Assembly: GCA_018830405.1 (NCBI GenBank)
Contig: JAHJSF010000025.1
Location: 1 to 7,002 of the forward strand
Reading direction: 5' to 3'
From: Nitrospinota bacterium
GTDB lineage: Bacteria; Nitrospinota; Nitrospinia; UBA9942; JAHJSF01
Length of the DNA: 7,002 nucleotides
Shown here: piece by piece, positions 3-6,624 of the stretch
How positions within the stretch are numbered: position 1 is the stretch's first letter
How the letters are laid out: every line of letters begins with the position of its first letter
Notes under the pieces: generated by a model
Seen by the model: only the letters and a program-made list of their open reading frames with translations
Database searches by the model: none
Told to the model about the DNA's origin: nothing
Position numbers and translations under genes: made by a program

Positions 3-545
3 ATGAACGAAGAAATAAAAACAGAGTTAGAAGAGAGTAATAGCAGTGCGAAAGTATCAAGAAGAAATTTCGTTAAATTGATGTCTGCCGGATGGGTTCT
101 TTTGGCCGCAGCAGCAGGAGGGACTACCTTGGCGGCCTTGCGTTCTTTTATCCCTAATACATTAAAAGAGCCGTCAAAAAAACGAAAGGTAGGCTTTTTA
201 GAGGAATTCAAGATTGGGGTAGATGAAAGGTTTCTGAAAGATTTTAGGGTCTTTGTTGTCCGTGAGGATGAGCAAATGTATGCCTTAGAGGCCTCATGTT
301 CTCACTTGGGCTGTACACCAAAATGGTTGCCGGATCAGGAAATGTTTGATTGTGCCTGCCATGGAGGTAGATTCAGCAAAGATGGCATGAATGTGGCGGG
401 CCCTCCCCCGAGAGCGTTAGACAGGGTCAAGATTACCCTGGCCGATGATGGTCAGATAATGTTAGACAAGGCAACCCTCTTTGTCCGTGATACAGCCAGG
501 GGCAAAAATGAGTGGGGTAAAGAAGGGGCATATTTGGAGGTGTAG
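3..545 (+). CDS. Rieske [2Fe-2S] iron-sulfur protein of a bc-type complex
   Basis: This 180-residue protein is the Rieske subunit, which takes an electron from quinol at the outer face of the cytochrome b complex and passes it to cytochrome c. A twin-arginine motif (S19-R20-R21-N-F-V-K25) is followed by a hydrophobic stretch (about 29-50), so the protein is probably Tat-exported and held by an uncleaved membrane anchor. The cluster boxes are C99-S-H101-L-G-C104 and C117-A-C119-H120-G-G. By family knowledge C99, H101, C117 and H120 bind the cluster and C104-C119 form the disulfide. The Ser and Tyr that hydrogen-bond the cluster in high-potential Rieske proteins are G122 and F124 here, which suggests a low-potential, menaquinone-type centre. 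The start lies two bases from the window edge, so its ribosome-binding site is not visible, but the Tat motif at residue 20 fits this start. The stop is 3 bases before the next gene. Confidence 0.95.
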   Translation: MNEEIKTELEESNSSAKVSRRNFVKLMSAGWVLLAAAAGGTTLAALRSFIPNTLKEPSKKRKVGFLEEFKIGVDERFLKDFRVFVVREDEQMYALEASCSHLGCTPKWLPDQEMFDCACHGGRFSKDGMNVAGPPPRALDRVKITLADDGQIMLDKATLFVRDTARGKNEWGKEGAYLEV

Positions 546-548
546 ATA

Positions 549-941
549 ATGTTTCCAGTAAAAAAGATTATGAGCAAGAATGTGACTAAACTGCCGGCTG
601 ATAAACCGGTAAGTGGTGTAGTCGTTTCAATGCAGACCTCCCACTGTGGAAGCGTTGTTATTGCTGAGGGGGATGAATATGTCGGTATTATTACCGAAAG
701 GGATCTTGTCCTAAAGGTGATGGGCACAGGTAAGGATCTGGAAAAAACCCTGAATAGGGAGATTATGTCTTCACCTGTGATGACAATTGATGAGGAGGCC
801 GGCATCATTGAAGCTAATGATCTGATGGATTTACATCAGATAAGACATCTGGTGGTGGTTAACAAAAAGGGGGAGATGGTTGGGGTTGTTTCTGTCCGTG
901 ACCTGCTTCATCCTGTCTATCTGGGAGATACAACATGGTAA
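549..941 (+). CDS. Two-CBS-domain protein, putative adenylate/NAD-sensing regulator
   Basis: This soluble 130-residue protein consists almost entirely of a pair of CBS domains (about 1-60 and 70-125). Each ends in the usual signature: G-I-I-T-E-R-D-L near residue 47 and G-V-V-S-V-R-D-L near residue 112. CBS pairs (Bateman modules) generally bind AMP, ATP, NAD(H) or S-adenosylmethionine and regulate partner proteins. No catalytic, DNA-binding or membrane segment is visible, so it probably acts through a partner. It lies between the Rieske gene and the flavoprotein gene, 3 bases after the former and overlapping the latter by 7 bases, so translational coupling is likely. A GGAGG at 536-540 lies 8 bases before the ATG. 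The regulatory role over the neighbouring complex is inferred from gene order only. Confidence 0.88.
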   Translation: MFPVKKIMSKNVTKLPADKPVSGVVVSMQTSHCGSVVIAEGDEYVGIITERDLVLKVMGTGKDLEKTLNREIMSSPVMTIDEEAGIIEANDLMDLHQIRHLVVVNKKGEMVGVVSVRDLLHPVYLGDTTW

Positions 942-2683
942 AACCAAGATATCGGGTTAGAAGATTGGACTCGGAATATTGGTTTGAGAATGTCCCCTGT
1001 CAGTCAGCCTGTCCGGTAGGGACAGAGGCAGGTAAATATGTGACAGCTATCGCTAGAAGTGACTATGACGAAGCCGCCCGGATAGCCTCAGAACCAAATC
1101 CATTGGCAGCGATTTGTGGTGTTGTGTGTGCTCATCCTTGCGAGAAGTCTTGCCGAAGAGGAAACATTGATGAACCTGTGGCGATTAGAGCCTTGAAGCG
1201 AACTGCATTAGAATCTGGAATCCAGAAAGCATTGAATCGCTCCTCAGGTAAAGAAGGAAAAAGAATAGCCATTATTGGGGCAGGCCCGGCCGGACTAGCC
1301 GCGGCTTCGGAGTTGGCCAAGATCGGACATCAGCCTGTTATATTTGAGAGCTCTGACAGGGTTGGTGGCATGACCGCCTTTGGAATACCACGGTATCGGC
1401 TTCCAATGAATGTAATTTCCGAGAATGGAAAGCTTATCCTAGATAATTTGAGCATAGAGCTCCGAACCGATGTCGTCATTGGGCGGGATATCTTGGTAAA
1501 CGATCTCCTTAAGAGAGAAGGCTTTTCGGCTGTCATTGCAGCCGTTGGGGCAAAGCTACCCAGAAAAATTCCACTTTCCGGCATAGATTTACAGGGTGTC
1601 TTCCAAGGAATAGACTTTCTTATGGGAGTTGCTTCAGAAAAAGAGTATGAGATTGTGGGGAAAAAGGTTGTTGTCATCGGAGGCGGCAATGTGGCCATGG
1701 ATGCTGCCAGAAGCGCCGTTCGCCTTGGCCCGGCTGAGGTACATTTAGTCTGTATGGAATCTCGAGCAGAGATGCCGGCCGATAAACTCGAGATCAAGGA
1801 AGCCCTTGAAGAGGGGGTTATCTTTCATAATTCCAAGGGCCCAAGAGAAATTATGGGTCTAAAAGATGTCTCAGGGCTGAAATGTGTCGCGGTTAAATCT
1901 GTTTTTGATCAGGAGGGAAAATTCAATCCCTCCTTCATTGAGGATGAGCAAGTGGTTTTGCCGGCAGACATAGTTATTATGACCATCGGCCAGATGCCTG
2001 ACGATAGCTGGGCTAAAGGTCTTGATGGGATTACCTTTACCCGCTTTGGAACTCCAGTTATAGATAAAGAAACTCTGTCCACTGAGGTAGACGGCATCTT
2101 TGCTGCAGGAGATTTGGCCACCGGCCCCGGAATTGCTATCTCGGCTGTAGAGTCAGGAATAAGAGCGGCCAGATCGGTTGATGCCTGGTTTAGGGGAGAG
2201 AAGGCTGTTCTGAAACGAAAGTTTAGGCAAGAGGTGGTTGATTACGCCACTAACCCAGAGATTGATTCCATTTTACGGCAAGAGCCAGCTGCCCTTTTGC
2301 CTGAGGAGAGAAGAACCAACTTTAATCAGGTAGAGCTTGCCTTCGATCCTGATATTGCCAGAGAACAGGCCAAAAGATGTCTGAACTGCTCTGTTAGCCC
2401 TGTTTTTAACCGGGAGACATGCCTTCTTTGTGGAGGGTGTGTTGATGTTTGTCCCAACTCCTGTTTGAGGTTGATTAGACCGGAAGAGGCTCAAATAGAA
2501 GAGGGGACGAATACCTTACCGGAGGCGCAGTCTCTTGAGGGGAAAACATTACTCATTAAGGATGAGGAACAATGTATTCGGTGTGGGCTATGTGTCAGTC
2601 GTTGTCCTGTTGGAGCCGTAAGTATGGCTCAGTTTACATTTGAAAAGGAGTGGGTCTATTCTGCTCAGGATGCGGGTATTTAG
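935..2683 (+). CDS. GltD-like FAD/NAD(P) oxidoreductase fused to a C-terminal 2x[4Fe-4S] ferredoxin
   Basis: This 582-residue cytoplasmic-type flavoprotein has no signal peptide. Domain order is an N-terminal helical Fe-S domain (C22-x3-C26, then C61, C65, C69, C73), an FAD Rossmann motif (G115-A-G-P-A-G120), a nested NAD(P) Rossmann motif (G249-G-G-N-V-A254), the second FAD signature (A-A-G-D-L-A-T-G-P, about 390-400), and a ferredoxin tail with C496-x2-C-x2-C-x3-C506-P and C547-x2-C-x2-C-x3-C557-P. This is the small-subunit glutamate synthase/NfnL/dihydropyrimidine dehydrogenase architecture, which moves electrons between NAD(P)H and Fe-S centres. There is no glutamate synthase large subunit nearby. 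Its place between Rieske and cytochrome b argues for an electron input or output module of that complex. The N-terminal domain lacks the first C-x2-C pair seen in GltD, but an R-C482-L-N-C485 pair occurs just before the ferredoxin. The start overlaps the CBS gene by 7 bases; GGGAG at 923-927 is the likely ribosome-binding site. Confidence 0.93.
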   Translation: MVKPRYRVRRLDSEYWFENVPCQSACPVGTEAGKYVTAIARSDYDEAARIASEPNPLAAICGVVCAHPCEKSCRRGNIDEPVAIRALKRTALESGIQKALNRSSGKEGKRIAIIGAGPAGLAAASELAKIGHQPVIFESSDRVGGMTAFGIPRYRLPMNVISENGKLILDNLSIELRTDVVIGRDILVNDLLKREGFSAVIAAVGAKLPRKIPLSGIDLQGVFQGIDFLMGVASEKEYEIVGKKVVVIGGGNVAMDAARSAVRLGPAEVHLVCMESRAEMPADKLEIKEALEEGVIFHNSKGPREIMGLKDVSGLKCVAVKSVFDQEGKFNPSFIEDEQVVLPADIVIMTIGQMPDDSWAKGLDGITFTRFGTPVIDKETLSTEVDGIFAAGDLATGPGIAISAVESGIRAARSVDAWFRGEKAVLKRKFRQEVVDYATNPEIDSILRQEPAALLPEERRTNFNQVELAFDPDIAREQAKRCLNCSVSPVFNRETCLLCGGCVDVCPNSCLRLIRPEEAQIEEGTNTLPEAQSLEGKTLLIKDEEQCIRCGLCVSRCPVGAVSMAQFTFEKEWVYSAQDAGI

Positions 2684-2757
2684 GCTGTAGACGATTAGGT
2701 GATGGGGTCGATATGCGACTAACCTCCCTCTGATAATTGATAAAGGATGTGGATAGT

Positions 2758-3555
2758 ATGAATGAAAATATTGATGAGAAGAGATTCGGTTTAATGGCAG
2801 AGGTTGCAGGGGAATCAAACCTTACCGCTAAAAACCCGGATGATTGTGTTCCGACTTGGCCAAATCTGGTCTATCGAGAACTTATCTGTATGATACTGGT
2901 GATGTCGCTTCTTCTTCTCTTGTCTCTTCTCTTCAGGGCCCCCCTGGAAGGGATGGCTAACCCTGCTGTGACACCAAATCCGGCCAAGGCGCCATGGTAT
3001 TTTGTTGGGCTGCAGGAGATCCTCCACTATTTTGATCCATGGATAGCCGGCGTAATTATACCAGGAGCTACTATGCTTGGACTTATGTGCATACCCTATA
3101 TTGACCCAAACAGAAAAGGGACTGGGGAATATAACCTCAAGGTAAGACCTTATGCCTGGATGTTTGTATTTGCATATGCGATGTGGTTTGCCCTGATTTT
3201 TGTCGGCAGGTTTATGCGTGGCCCCAGCTGGCTCCTTTATTGGCCGTGGGAAGCATGGGATATCCATAGGGTTGCAGCTGCTCACGACATTAATTTGTCG
3301 GAGTTGCTTAGAATACCATCTACGATCCCTTGGGTTTTGCGGGAGATTCCCGGCATGGCACTACTTCTACTTCACTTTGTCGGCATTCCTTTGATTATGA
3401 ATAAAAGGATGAAAGGGCCGTATCAATCTCTTGGCATCATCCGCAAGATTATATTTTGGGCAATGGTTATGGGGATGTTCTTTGTGACCTTAAAGATATT
3501 CTTGCGGCAGTTTAACATAGAATACCTCTTGATTACGCCGTGGTTTTCGATATAG
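2758..3555 (+). CDS. Cytochrome b, C-terminal half (subunit IV-like) of a split cytochrome b
   Basis: This 265-residue membrane protein matches the C-terminal portion of cytochrome b, which forms part of the quinol-oxidation site and lacks the two b haems. Helices are seen at about 39-59, 95-113, 133-150, 197-214 and 229-247. Between the first two lies N74-P-A-K-A-P-W-Y-F82, equivalent to the P-E-W-Y quinol-site motif but with Pro replacing the Glu. The segment starting P32-T-W-P-N-L-V-Y-R-E is a typical beginning for the separate C-terminal half. The extra helices after residue 190 make it longer than plant or cyanobacterial subunit IV (about 160 residues). I chose the ATG at 2758 because A-AAGGA at 2742-2747 precedes it by 10 bases; an in-frame TTG at 2737 would add seven residues but lies upstream of that site. 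The N-terminal, haem-carrying half is not in the window and may lie upstream of position 1. Confidence 0.9.
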   Translation: MNENIDEKRFGLMAEVAGESNLTAKNPDDCVPTWPNLVYRELICMILVMSLLLLLSLLFRAPLEGMANPAVTPNPAKAPWYFVGLQEILHYFDPWIAGVIIPGATMLGLMCIPYIDPNRKGTGEYNLKVRPYAWMFVFAYAMWFALIFVGRFMRGPSWLLYWPWEAWDIHRVAAAHDINLSELLRIPSTIPWVLREIPGMALLLLHFVGIPLIMNKRMKGPYQSLGIIRKIIFWAMVMGMFFVTLKIFLRQFNIEYLLITPWFSI

Positions 3556-3564
3556 GTAATAGTT

Positions 3565-3639
3565 CAGGTGTAAAGTAATTCAAGCTTCCGGCTTGATGAT
3601 TTTGTTTACACCTGCAAGCGGAATTCTTGCGTTACTTTT
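3565..3639 (+). repeat. Nested inverted repeats before the cytochrome c gene
   Basis: In the 120-base gap between the cytochrome b and cytochrome c genes, a perfect 10-base inverted repeat (CAGGTGTAAA at 3565-3574 with TTTACACCTG at 3605-3614) encloses a second perfect hairpin, TCAAGC/GCTTGA (3580-3585 with 3591-3596, loop TTCCG). A third hairpin follows at once: GCAAG/CTTGC (3614-3618 with 3626-3630). An alternative pairing exists: AAAGTAATTCAAG (3572-3584) matches CTTGCGTTACTTT (3626-3638) at 11 of 13 positions and would exclude the first stem. The third hairpin is followed by GTTACTTTTC, which is only weakly terminator-like. It could be an attenuator, an mRNA processing or stability element, or a small palindromic repeat. 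The pairing is read directly from the sequence; function is unknown. Confidence 0.6.
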
Positions 3640-3675
3640 CCCCTATCTTAAGCATTAAATATGGAGATTATATAA

Positions 3676-5085
3676 ATGAAAAAATTGCATATCTGGTTTA
3701 TAGTGGCTAGTTTTCTGCTATTTGCTGTTACCTCAATCGCATATTACAATGAACATAACCGTGAGTGGAAGCAATATCAACGGCAATTCAGGGTTGTAGA
3801 ATACGAGAAGACTAAAAAAGATTATGCAGAGTTGTTAGAATCCTTTGCCCAGTCCTCAGAAGGGAAAGATAAAGAAGAGATAGAGATGCTCAGAGAGCAA
3901 TATCGGCTTGATTGGTATGAGTCAAGGCTGTCCAATATTAAACCGGGCCTTTTAGATAGGTTGCGTAACTTTATATTTATTGACTTCCTTTACCCTACGA
4001 ACAAGATTAGAGAGGTATCTCTGCCTGGTCTTGATAATCGGGTTGATAGGTGTACTACCTGCCATCAGGCTATTGACCGCCAGGGTTTTGAACAGGTTGA
4101 TTTTCCGGGCCTTAAAAAGGAGCCAAGGCGGGGGTTTGATAACCAGGGGTTACCCTTTACTACCCATTCTCGTTATGACCTTATTATAAAAAATCATCCG
4201 CCGGAAACATTTGGCTGTACTGCCTGCCATCAGGGGCAGGGTCGGGCTACAGATAGTAAATCTGCTAAGGGAGATGTTCCCCATTGGGAAGAACCTCTTT
4301 TGCCGGCAAAATTTGTAGAATCGTCATGCGCTAAGTGTCATGTAGGATCTGGTGAGCTTGAAGGGGCTAAAAGTCTTTCACTCGGAAAGAAGCTCTTTGT
4401 GGAAAGGGGTTGCTTCGCCTGCCATGCCATAGACAGGGAAGGGTTTAGGGAAATTGCTAAAGGCAGCCTAGGTCCCCCTTTAACCTCTTTCGGCTCAAAA
4501 AGGGTTGAAGACCTGCAGTGGGGAGAGGTGACTGATGTCCCTAGGACAAAATGGGATTGGCATTTTGCCTTTGTCAAAGAGCCGGAGTTGTTTAACCCGG
4601 AAACGCAAATGACCAACTACGGCCTTACAGACGAGGAGGCCGAGGCCCTGACCAATTTTGTCTTAGGTCTTGTTGATGAAGAGGTAGGTAGCCGCTACCT
4701 GGTGAGACCAAAGGTTGAAAAGGCAAATAGTAGCTCTCAACCGGTAAAATCTAAGACTGGAGATGTCACCGCTAAAGGATCTTCGCCGGGAAGAGAACTC
4801 TTTCTGGAAAGGGGATGCATTGCCTGTCATACCATAGACAGGGAAGGTTTAAGAGAGGTTGCTAACGGCACCGTGGGTCCTCCCTTAACCTTTTTTGGCT
4901 CAAAAGGGGTTGATGAACTGGAATGGGGAGAAGTGACAGATATCCCCAGGACAAAACGGGATTGGGTCGTTGCCTATATCAAAGATCCGGCGAGGTTTAA
5001 GCCGGATACGCTAATGAGTGACTATGGCCTTACAGACGAAGAGATAGACGCCTTGGCCGATTTTATGTTAGGTCTTGTTAAATGA
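3676..5085 (+). CDS. Membrane-anchored five-haem cytochrome c with duplicated C-terminal haem domain
   Basis: This 469-residue protein has an N-terminal hydrophobic anchor (about 4-22), a charged, probably coiled-coil stretch (about 26-90), and five C-x2-C-H haem sites at C126, C181, C218, C246 and C381. The first three form a multihaem domain. The last two belong to class I-like monohaem domains (about 237-334 and 372-469) that align without gaps at 63 of 98 residues, each ending in a conserved P-x-T-x-M-x-x-Y-G-L-T-D-E-E segment whose Met is a probable distal haem ligand. The domains should lie outside the cytoplasmic membrane and act as electron acceptor or conduit for the Rieske/cytochrome b complex encoded just upstream. 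GGAG at 3663-3666 sits 9 bases before the ATG. It is last in the cluster. I do not recognise a named family, and the terminal electron acceptor is unknown. Confidence 0.92.
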   Translation: MKKLHIWFIVASFLLFAVTSIAYYNEHNREWKQYQRQFRVVEYEKTKKDYAELLESFAQSSEGKDKEEIEMLREQYRLDWYESRLSNIKPGLLDRLRNFIFIDFLYPTNKIREVSLPGLDNRVDRCTTCHQAIDRQGFEQVDFPGLKKEPRRGFDNQGLPFTTHSRYDLIIKNHPPETFGCTACHQGQGRATDSKSAKGDVPHWEEPLLPAKFVESSCAKCHVGSGELEGAKSLSLGKKLFVERGCFACHAIDREGFREIAKGSLGPPLTSFGSKRVEDLQWGEVTDVPRTKWDWHFAFVKEPELFNPETQMTNYGLTDEEAEALTNFVLGLVDEEVGSRYLVRPKVEKANSSSQPVKSKTGDVTAKGSSPGRELFLERGCIACHTIDREGLREVANGTVGPPLTFFGSKGVDELEWGEVTDIPRTKRDWVVAYIKDPARFKPDTLMSDYGLTDEEIDALADFMLGLVK

Positions 5086-5192: not shown

Positions 5193-6619
5193 CTAATTTT
5201 TAAGTATTATCCTATCCGTCTCGTTGACCATATCAATAATCGGAATTTCCGGGCTATTATCTCCCATGAGTTTTTTGGCGAGAGCCGGAGAAATGCTTCT
5301 ATACTTGAGAGTTGTTTCAATCTCTAAAGGGGATTTTGCCCCAGGGGGGATGTCGAAAGAGAAGTTTTCTATTCTATGTCCCTTCGGAGGGATCCTGTAA
5401 TCATGAAGCACCCGATCGGCTAAGGCAACATTTATAGTTGGTTTCCCCTCTTTGTCTCCCAATTGAGTATTGTATAGGACTGCATCTTTGTCCAGATTCC
5501 CCTCTTTATCAAGGTCTCCCGAACTGAAAATAATCTTTCCGGAGGCGTCCTTAACCTTGAGAGTGAGCCACATCTCCCTTATTTCGGTGACACCTGTCGG
5601 GAGATAGTGCCCCGCCCCGGAGTTTATTACCTTAACCTTTATTAGGGCAGGCTGACCGGTACTATAGGAGCCCTCCTTTATTATCTCGAGGTCGGCGGCA
5701 TTTTTTAGTCTCTCTATCGCCATTCCTGCGTTCACCTCACTCCCCAAAAGTTTTGTGACTATGGCGTTTCCTCCGACAAAATAGTGGGTCCAAATATGTT
5801 TTCTATCCGGCCCATCAAAGGCGGCCTTGCCTGGATTGTCCGGTCTTTCCGTTTTGCCTGTAGCAGGTATGCCGGGACGCTGTCTCATGTGACAGTCCTG
5901 ACAGTTGACCGTTGTTTCCGGATTTCCTGAATTATAGGGACTCTCCTTCCACTCGTCATAGGTTGTTTCAAGGGGGAGATTGTTGGCTACGTGAGAGACG
6001 TTGTGGCACAGTCCGCAGAATTCAGACTTGGTATGGAGTTCCGAATATTTTGAGGGATGGAAGGGGGTTTCTGAGTCCTTGAAGGGGCCTAGCATGGTCG
6101 AAGGTTCGGCTAAACCACCTCCCGGAGCCACCTCATAAGCCGCATCACCGATATGCTTTACCTCATTTATATTGTGACACCAGTTGCAAAAAATTCCTTG
6201 GGCAGGTAGAGGCGCAAGTTTGTCGTAGTCTTCCTCTGGAGAGGAAATTGAATGGGATCGAAACCCTAGAGGGGTATGGCACTTTATGCAGGCCTTCATC
6301 TCAAGGAGTTCCCCTTCCTCTTTTGCATCCTTATAATAGAAGAGCTTTGTAGCCGCTCTCCAGAGGGGGTCAACAAATGCCTTGCTGTGCATAGACCCGC
6401 TCCACTGACTGTAAATATCAGTATGACATGCGCTGCACACAGCGGGGTCTATAAACTGATCAATTTCGACCTTTTTAAAATCGAAGATCCCACTTTTTTT
6501 TCCAGGGGGGAGTTTGTCTTCATCTTTTTGTTCTCGGCCACCTTCTCCCTTTTTGTCGAGGCAAAGGAAACGGAAACGAACATGATCAGAGCAACGAGTA
6601 GAAAAAAGGTTTTTTTCAT
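5193..6619 (-). CDS. Secreted five-haem cytochrome c, frame interrupted after the signal peptide
   Basis: The minus strand encodes five C-x2-C-H sites (about residues 62, 111, 145, 202 and 240 of a frame-corrected 475-residue protein) and a C-terminal beta-rich domain (about 300-475, including G-H-Y-L-P-T-G-V). The haem frame is open upstream of 6440, but its only apparent start there is a GTG immediately before the first haem site, giving no signal peptide. The ATG at 6619 starts a good Sec signal (M-K-K-T-F-F-L-L-V-A-L-I-M-F-V-S-V-S-F-A), preceded by AGGGGG at 6625-6630. That frame stops at 6449-6451. A -1 shift anywhere between the signal and that stop joins both parts; the obvious place is the A8 run at 6494-6501. 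The gene may be intact through slippage, damaged, or affected by a sequencing error. The product is a periplasmic or surface electron carrier; its substrate is unknown. The gene is convergent with the Rieske/cytochrome b cluster. Confidence 0.85.
6494..6510 (-). other. Homopolymer site of the apparent frameshift (A8 with A-AAA-AAA heptamer, next to C6)
   Basis: Read on the minus strand in the frame of the 6619 ATG, the codons are GAA-AAA-AAA-GTG, so the run gives the canonical -1 slippery heptamer A-AAA-AAA. A -1 slip, or one extra A from transcriptional slippage or a corrected read, yields GAA-AAA-AAA-AGT and enters the haem-domain frame. A run of six C lies just upstream (minus sense, 6505-6510) and is the other likely position for an indel. 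The sequence cannot distinguish recoding from mutation or sequencing error. Confidence 0.6.
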
Positions 6620-6624
6620 GGGAA

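Follow-up and report, generated by a model that had tools for sequence, protein, structure and literature searches.

A candidate flavoprotein-bearing Rieske/cytochrome b gene cluster with a CBS-domain protein in a draft genome of a Nitrospinota bacterium

Gene content of the locus

The stretch of DNA analyzed here (the window) is a complete contig of 7,002 nt (C155) from a Nitrospinota bacterium, taken from a draft metagenome-assembled genome (MAG) of 1.42 Mb in 185 contigs which is 87% complete. Five genes on its plus strand encode a Rieske protein, a protein with two CBS domains, a GltD-like flavoprotein, the C-terminal half of cytochrome b (called subunit IV throughout) and a five-haem cytochrome c (Table 1). 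A reading made from the sequence alone (the sequence-only reading) had listed the same five genes, including the ferredoxin tail of the flavoprotein, and all of them were found at or near the positions named there. It had also described their spacing as tight. This holds for the first three genes, as the Rieske and CBS genes are separated by 3 nt and the CBS and flavoprotein genes overlap by 7 nt, but the gaps further downstream are looser. Subunit IV is preceded by 74 nt and the cytochrome c gene by 120 nt, the latter gap containing two hairpins of which one is terminator-like. From this arrangement, a single transcript across the five genes is plausible.

Table 1. Predicted genes and features of the window.
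Feature	Length	Position	Strand	Family matches and remarks
Rieske [2Fe-2S] protein	180 aa	3-545	+	PF00355, 39 bits
Two-CBS-domain (Bateman) protein	130 aa	549-941	+	PF00571, 78 bits, 2 stretches
GltD/NfnB-like flavoprotein	582 aa	935-2683	+	Fer4_20, Pyr_redox_2; best NCBIfam match PRK12771
Subunit IV	265 aa	2758-3555 (ATG 2758; reading frame open from TTG 2737)	+	PF00032, ExtQ
Gap between genes; two hairpins, of which that at 3580-3596 is terminator-like		3556-3675	+	
Five-haem cytochrome c, membrane-anchored	469 aa	3676-5085	+	Five CxxCH; PF00034 twice
ExtKL-like five-haem cytochrome c, convergent, separate unit		5193-6620	-	NF040886, 79 bits

The Rieske protein has a twin-arginine-like N-terminus (SRRNF) and one membrane helix. 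Both ligand sets of the cluster, C-x-H-x-G-C and C-x-C-H, are present (CSHLGC and CACHGGRF). The two PDB entries that match it best, 9rk3 (E 1e-37) and 9rk4 (E 4e-19), correspond by their depositor names to the Rieske proteins of the two flavoprotein-bearing complexes of the anammox bacterium Kuenenia. The flavoprotein carries an N-terminal Fe-S cysteine set, a flavin adenine dinucleotide (FAD) site (GAGPAG), a nicotinamide adenine dinucleotide (phosphate) (NAD(P)) site (GGGNVAMD) and two extra C-terminal [4Fe-4S] motifs, and it has no membrane helix. An alignment with anammox and same-order homologues showed that the Fe-S, FAD, NAD(P) and C-terminal ferredoxin-like motifs are common to the window protein and the anammox subunits. 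Its relatives in the PDB are NfnA, Nfn alpha, GltD, dihydropyrimidine dehydrogenase and the large subunit of formate dehydrogenase-O.

Subunit IV contains the Qo motif KAPWYF, which is common to most of its homologues. Five membrane helices (37-58, 94-115, 133-152, 197-217 and 227-251) were identified by hydropathy and by an AlphaFold model of moderate quality (predicted local distance difference test score, pLDDT, 70); in a Foldseek search this model matched no structure significantly (best E 4.4). Of 46 positions without variation among 26 homologues, subunit IV retains 44, and of 103 such positions among 10 homologues the flavoprotein retains 92, so that the genes seem to be maintained and subunit IV does not appear to be decaying. 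The cytochrome c has an N-terminal membrane helix (4-22), CxxCH motifs at residues 126, 181, 218, 246 and 381, and two C-terminal class I domains which are mutually alike. With this membrane-anchored five-haem protein, a c-type cytochrome partner for the outer side is found in the cluster.

The CBS protein lacks a membrane helix. It contains the motifs GIITERD and GVVSVRD, both of the type G-h-h-T/S-x-x-D, and ends in the tail HPVYLGDTTW. In the CBS family, motifs of this type are involved in the binding of adenosyl ligands. An AlphaFold model of the CBS protein alone reached a pLDDT of 37 and was not used.

Occurrence of the flavoprotein in Rieske/cytochrome b operons

For comparison, the phylum of the window was sampled by 77 genomes of one class, with draft MAGs among them, which include the same-order relatives G001, G003, G005 and G006. 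Nitrospirota were sampled by 395 genomes, and the neighborhoods of subunit IV were surveyed in the best 80 loci from named genomes. The proposal that the flavoprotein belongs with the Rieske/cytochrome b genes passed this neighborhood test. Within the phylum, its closest relative is a protein of G008 with 46% identity, which is also its sister in the tree (100/100) and is encoded in a GltD-Rieske-b6-subunit IV-9-haem operon, where b6 is the haem-bearing N-terminal half of cytochrome b. In genomes of the same order, the gene order Rieske-b6-subunit IV-5-haem c-GltD was found. Nine of the 80 named loci carry the flavoprotein, all of them in Planctomycetota and several in anammox bacteria. The order is Rieske-b6-GltD-subunit IV in L002, L003, L004, L006 and L009 (an eight-haem cytochrome c follows in L003 and L006, and L002 ends at a contig edge) and Rieske-GltD-b6-subunit IV in L028, L072, L077 and L078. 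Most of the 80 loci show the order Rieske-b6-subunit IV-octahaem c.

The comparison with anammox bacteria, made before in general terms, is correct and can be drawn more sharply, as the counterpart of the window cluster is Kustd1480-1485. Kuenenia has two complexes of this kind, Kustd1480-1485 and Kuste4569-4574, for which the reduction of NAD(P)+ by bifurcation of quinol electrons was proposed (PMC12954380). In AlphaFold3 models of these complexes the Fe-S clusters were traced from the b haems to the FAD, and the scheme relies on Rieske proteins whose potentials exceed +300 mV (PMC12954380). Like Kustd1480-1485, the window cluster combines a Rieske protein, a five-helix subunit IV as in a split b6f-type cytochrome b, a flavoprotein with FAD, NAD(P) and Fe-S sites and a multihaem cytochrome c. 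The order Rieske-X-GltD-(insert)-subunit IV is shared with the anammox-type loci L003, L004 and L006. However, X is b6 in Kustd1480-1485 and the CBS gene in the window, the cytochrome c has eight haems there and five here, the Rieske motif is CHGS there and CHGG here, and no CBS gene was found in the anammox loci. The Kuste4569-4574 and Scalindua loci (Rieske-GltD-b6-subunit IV-6-haem c-8-haem HAO-like) contain the same modules, with the flavoprotein gene adjoining the Rieske gene, but differ in gene order, in the extra HAO-like octahaem protein and in a high-potential Rieske protein with both Ser and Tyr. Likeness was also found to the Geobacter-type ext/cbc clusters (selenite/tellurite operon), with weak NCBIfam matches of ExtQ to subunit IV and of ExtS to the cytochrome c and a match of ExtKL to the convergent cytochrome, although all matches are far under the family cut-offs and the flavoprotein has no Ext family among the matches listed. 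The core association of a flavoprotein with Rieske and cytochrome b is already described in outline. What appears to be new in comparison to Kuenenia is the CBS module.

Some of the flavoprotein-bearing loci show further genes of interest. The G008 locus (L107, contig C21) is a tandem of two distinct Rieske/b6/subunit IV/multihaem operons with the flavoprotein in the first. In G001 (L232, contig C94) and G005 (L235, contig C7), GltD, accompanied by CBS in G001, closes a run of genes that encode several c-type cytochromes and a large membrane protein resembling cytochrome bd or an oxidase; the run in G001 also includes an NADH-dehydrogenase-like membrane subunit. These runs may represent a larger respiratory module. 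In two of the Planctomycetota operons with flavoprotein, a gene for a cupredoxin-like secreted protein is located directly 5' of the Rieske gene (L009, 5586-6299; L078, 3532-4152). Its product is a possible electron carrier.

Recurrent linkage of CBS domains to the complex

The CBS gene, which the sequence-only reading had noted as an extra twist, is real and recurs in relatives, both as a gene linked to GltD and as a fusion to subunit IV. In the same-order genomes G001 and G003, a CBS gene begins 7 nt past the GltD stop codon and 24 nt past GltD, respectively. The end of the G003 contig overlaps (361 nt, 96.4%) with a contig bearing Rieske-b6-subunit IV-5-haem c-GltD, and therefore the operon of G003 very probably ends in the CBS gene. 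In two of the 77 genomes of the phylum (G001 and G004), a CBS pair is fused N-terminally to a three-helix subunit IV, and the fusion gene precedes that of a 9-haem cytochrome c. A Rieske-b6 pair converges on the fusion gene in G004. The 14 best matches to this subunit IV in the 395 Nitrospirota genomes are all CBS-subunit IV fusions, of which 4 lie within Rieske-b6-(CBS-subunit IV)-cytochrome c operons and 10 are clpX-linked or belong to the same clade. These fusions resemble the window cluster in that a CBS pair of the same broad group is tied to the C-terminal half of cytochrome b of a Rieske/b6 complex. They differ in the covalent link, in a three-helix subunit IV, in the lack of a flavoprotein and in the adjoining cytochrome c, which has 9, 1 or 2-3 haems.

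Trees of CBS proteins place that of the window with two GltD-linked ones (95/79 and 91/85) and near the fused ones, with moderate support, a long window branch and a sample picked by similarity. Besides this protein, the search of the window genome revealed only a single CBS-like one, so that a chance position of the CBS gene within the operon is unlikely. A search of the PubMed Central (PMC) literature found no paper linking a CBS domain with Rieske/cytochrome b, which is not proof because subscription papers lie mostly outside this collection.

CBS genes were also seen in other settings. In the Nitrospirota genomes G115 and G124 (L276 and L279), the CBS-subunit IV fusion and a one-haem cytochrome c are located between tig-clpP-clpX and two U32-peptidase-like genes, with b6 elsewhere; the pair of U32-peptidase-like genes resembles UbiU/UbiV of quinone biosynthesis. 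In G043 (L145, 9919-10302), a two-CBS gene lies directly 3' of a Rieske-cytochrome b-octahaem operon. Its sequence is from a different CBS group, and the placement possibly represents an independent association. Among the best matches in Desulfobacterota no CBS-subunit IV fusion was confirmed, including a candidate behind a 297-aa open frame of L290. No hidden CBS gene was found in the anammox clusters, where the small open reading frames between flavoprotein and subunit IV match no CBS query. Judged by eye, these frames resemble a PIN-type protein and other inserts, the PIN-like toxin-type gene being located at 8850-9317 in L003 and at 9242-9730 in L004.

Proposed function and direction of electron flow

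On balance, we lean towards a Rieske/cytochrome b complex with a flavoprotein, similar in operation to Kustd1480-1485, that is equipped with a cytoplasmic regulatory CBS module and has its b6 half encoded in unassembled DNA. In such a complex, quinol would be oxidized at the Qo site between b6 and subunit IV. The first electron would pass to the Rieske protein and on to the five-haem cytochrome c on the outer side. The second would move through the b haems to the Fe-S clusters of the flavoprotein, which would exchange electrons with NAD(P)(H), or ferredoxin, in the cytoplasm. The CBS subunit would be regulatory and cytoplasmic, probably binds nucleotides and would dock at the inner face, close to the flavoprotein and the N-terminal end of subunit IV. 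It may sense an adenine nucleotide or dinucleotide and thereby tune or gate the electron exchange between b haems and flavoprotein. The position at the inner membrane face is suggested by the fusions, since they attach the CBS pair to the N-terminal end of subunit IV at this face, where the flavoprotein must dock as well. In the algal b6f complex, both electron transfer and kinase feedback depend on the N-terminal residues of subunit IV, and a deletion of five residues there disrupts electron transfer (PMC13287000). Control could therefore plausibly act at this end of the subunit.

In this picture the gene content, the conserved motifs and the recurrent CBS linkage and fusion are observed, whereas complex formation, the route and direction of the electrons, the ligand and the place of b6 are inferred. 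Several observations weigh against this assignment. The b6 half was not found in the window or in the entire assembly (queries PF13631, PF00033 and two b6 homologues), although five of six same-order genomes of similar completeness contain several b6 copies. No CBS gene occurs in any of the 80 best named subunit IV loci, the anammox loci included, and G005 and G006 of the same order have GltD without CBS. The CBS-subunit IV fusions belong to short, three-helix complexes without GltD, unlike the type found in the window. In addition, the Rieske protein has CACHGGRF in place of CPCHGS(x)Y/F. The second-sphere Ser, kept in 22 of 22 aligned Rieske homologues, is replaced by Gly122, and the position of the Tyr is taken by Phe.

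This last point bears on the direction of flow. For the yeast Rieske protein, values quoted in PMC12954380 put the loss of the Ser at about 130 mV and that of the Tyr at about 65 mV towards lower potential. Kustd1480 is also without the Tyr, yet other factors can compensate. As both potential-raising hydrogen bonds are absent in the window protein, a simple copy of the uphill NAD(P)+ reduction of Kuenenia is weakened, and an input fed by NAD(P)H or the use of a lower-potential quinone is possible. The direction of flow and the bifurcation suggested by the sequence-only reading are thus not established, with b6 outside the assembly and a Rieske protein of this type. A complex of the Kuenenia type could instead run in reverse, with electrons from NAD(P)H or reduced ferredoxin passing through the flavoprotein into the quinone pool, the Rieske arm carrying out ordinary quinol oxidation and the CBS protein gating the input. 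The missing Ser, otherwise universal in the alignment, and the missing Tyr argue for such a reversal, as judged by the quoted yeast values, because they would leave less driving force for the uphill arm than in Kuenenia. However, a quinone of lower potential would restore the uphill scheme, and the authors of the Kuenenia study deem a flow from NAD(P)H to quinone wasteful where proton-pumping NADH dehydrogenases exist (PMC12954380). We regard reversed flow as rather unlikely.

It is also doubtful that the CBS protein is a passenger, a two-CBS protein of general type whose co-transcription is accidental or serves co-regulation and which plays no part in the complex. Such proteins are frequent and readily shuffled, most Rieske/cytochrome b clusters are without one, and CBS genes of the same class occur in many other contexts. 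On the other hand, the linkage to GltD is repeated within the order, the fusion to subunit IV occurs in two phyla, and the linked CBS proteins cluster in the tree.

The missing b6 half can be viewed in two ways. The contig starts 2 nt upstream of the Rieske ATG, and an assembly gap is therefore the simplest explanation. The searches found no b6 even though this subunit is among the best conserved of the complex (about 60-73% identity between relatives). In the clpX-linked clade of Nitrospirota, the CBS-subunit IV gene is located beside clpX and b6 at another site (in G124, for instance, at a distance of about 35 kb), so that the two halves of cytochrome b need not be encoded together. The b6 gene, which the proposed complex would need, is probably unassembled, and most likely it immediately precedes the contig or lies at another site of the genome. 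Alternatively, b6 could have been lost, with the CBS gene taking its slot and the remaining proteins forming a degenerate or repurposed system without quinol oxidation. In favor of a loss, no b6 was detected anywhere in the assembly, and the CBS gene occupies exactly the b6 slot of Kustd1480-type operons (Rieske-X-GltD-subunit IV-c). A true loss is nevertheless improbable, given the contig edge, the incomplete assembly and the distant b6 genes of Nitrospirota, and also because the conserved subunit IV, the Rieske cluster ligands and the flavoprotein sites imply an active complex. A CBS protein as a physical stand-in for b6 was ruled out, since without a membrane helix it could not bind b haems within the membrane.

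That the flavoprotein, despite its GltD/NfnB-like core, is an ordinary GltD small subunit of glutamate synthase or a soluble Nfn-like enzyme in a fortuitous position is very improbable, because it has the extra C-terminal [4Fe-4S] pair of the anammox complex subunits, which glutamate synthase GltD lacks, no GltB partner is encoded in the window, and its nearest relatives sit with Rieske/cytochrome b genes.

The flavoprotein-bearing complex, known from anammox bacteria and modelled only recently, now seems to have a counterpart in an unrelated lineage, and the change in the Rieske sequence of the window makes the hypothesis of NAD(P)H generation testable by comparison. The fusion of CBS domains onto the complex in relatives suggests a built-in metabolic switch in some Rieske/cytochrome b complexes, and the recurrence of the link, beside the flavoprotein gene and as a subunit IV fusion in two phyla, points to direct metabolic gating. 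We tentatively propose, as a conjecture that may well prove wrong, that certain Rieske/cytochrome b complexes of bacteria are equipped with a CBS subunit or domain dedicated to nucleotide sensing and located at the inner side of subunit IV, by which quinol oxidation or the flavoprotein-linked NAD(P) exchange would be gated according to the adenylate or redox state. If true, the bc1/b6f superfamily would include an allosteric member under the control of energy charge, and the window would represent a three-way form composed of Rieske/cytochrome b, flavoprotein and CBS protein. The CBS-subunit IV fusions would allow the gating idea to be tested within one polypeptide.

The convergent cytochrome

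The ExtKL-like cytochrome gene at the other end of the window lies outside the operon. Its signal peptide (MKKTFFLLVALIMFVSVSFA) is out of frame with the body of the protein, with the frame shift located in homopolymer tracts at about 6495-6510, which may be either a real frameshift or an assembly error. The protein is a possible redox partner of the complex. In several loci of the same class (L137, L139, L140, L141, L143 and L243), an ExtKL-like five-haem gene is located directly 5' of Rieske-b6-subunit IV, and the convergent cytochrome of the window may for this reason be functionally linked to the cluster.

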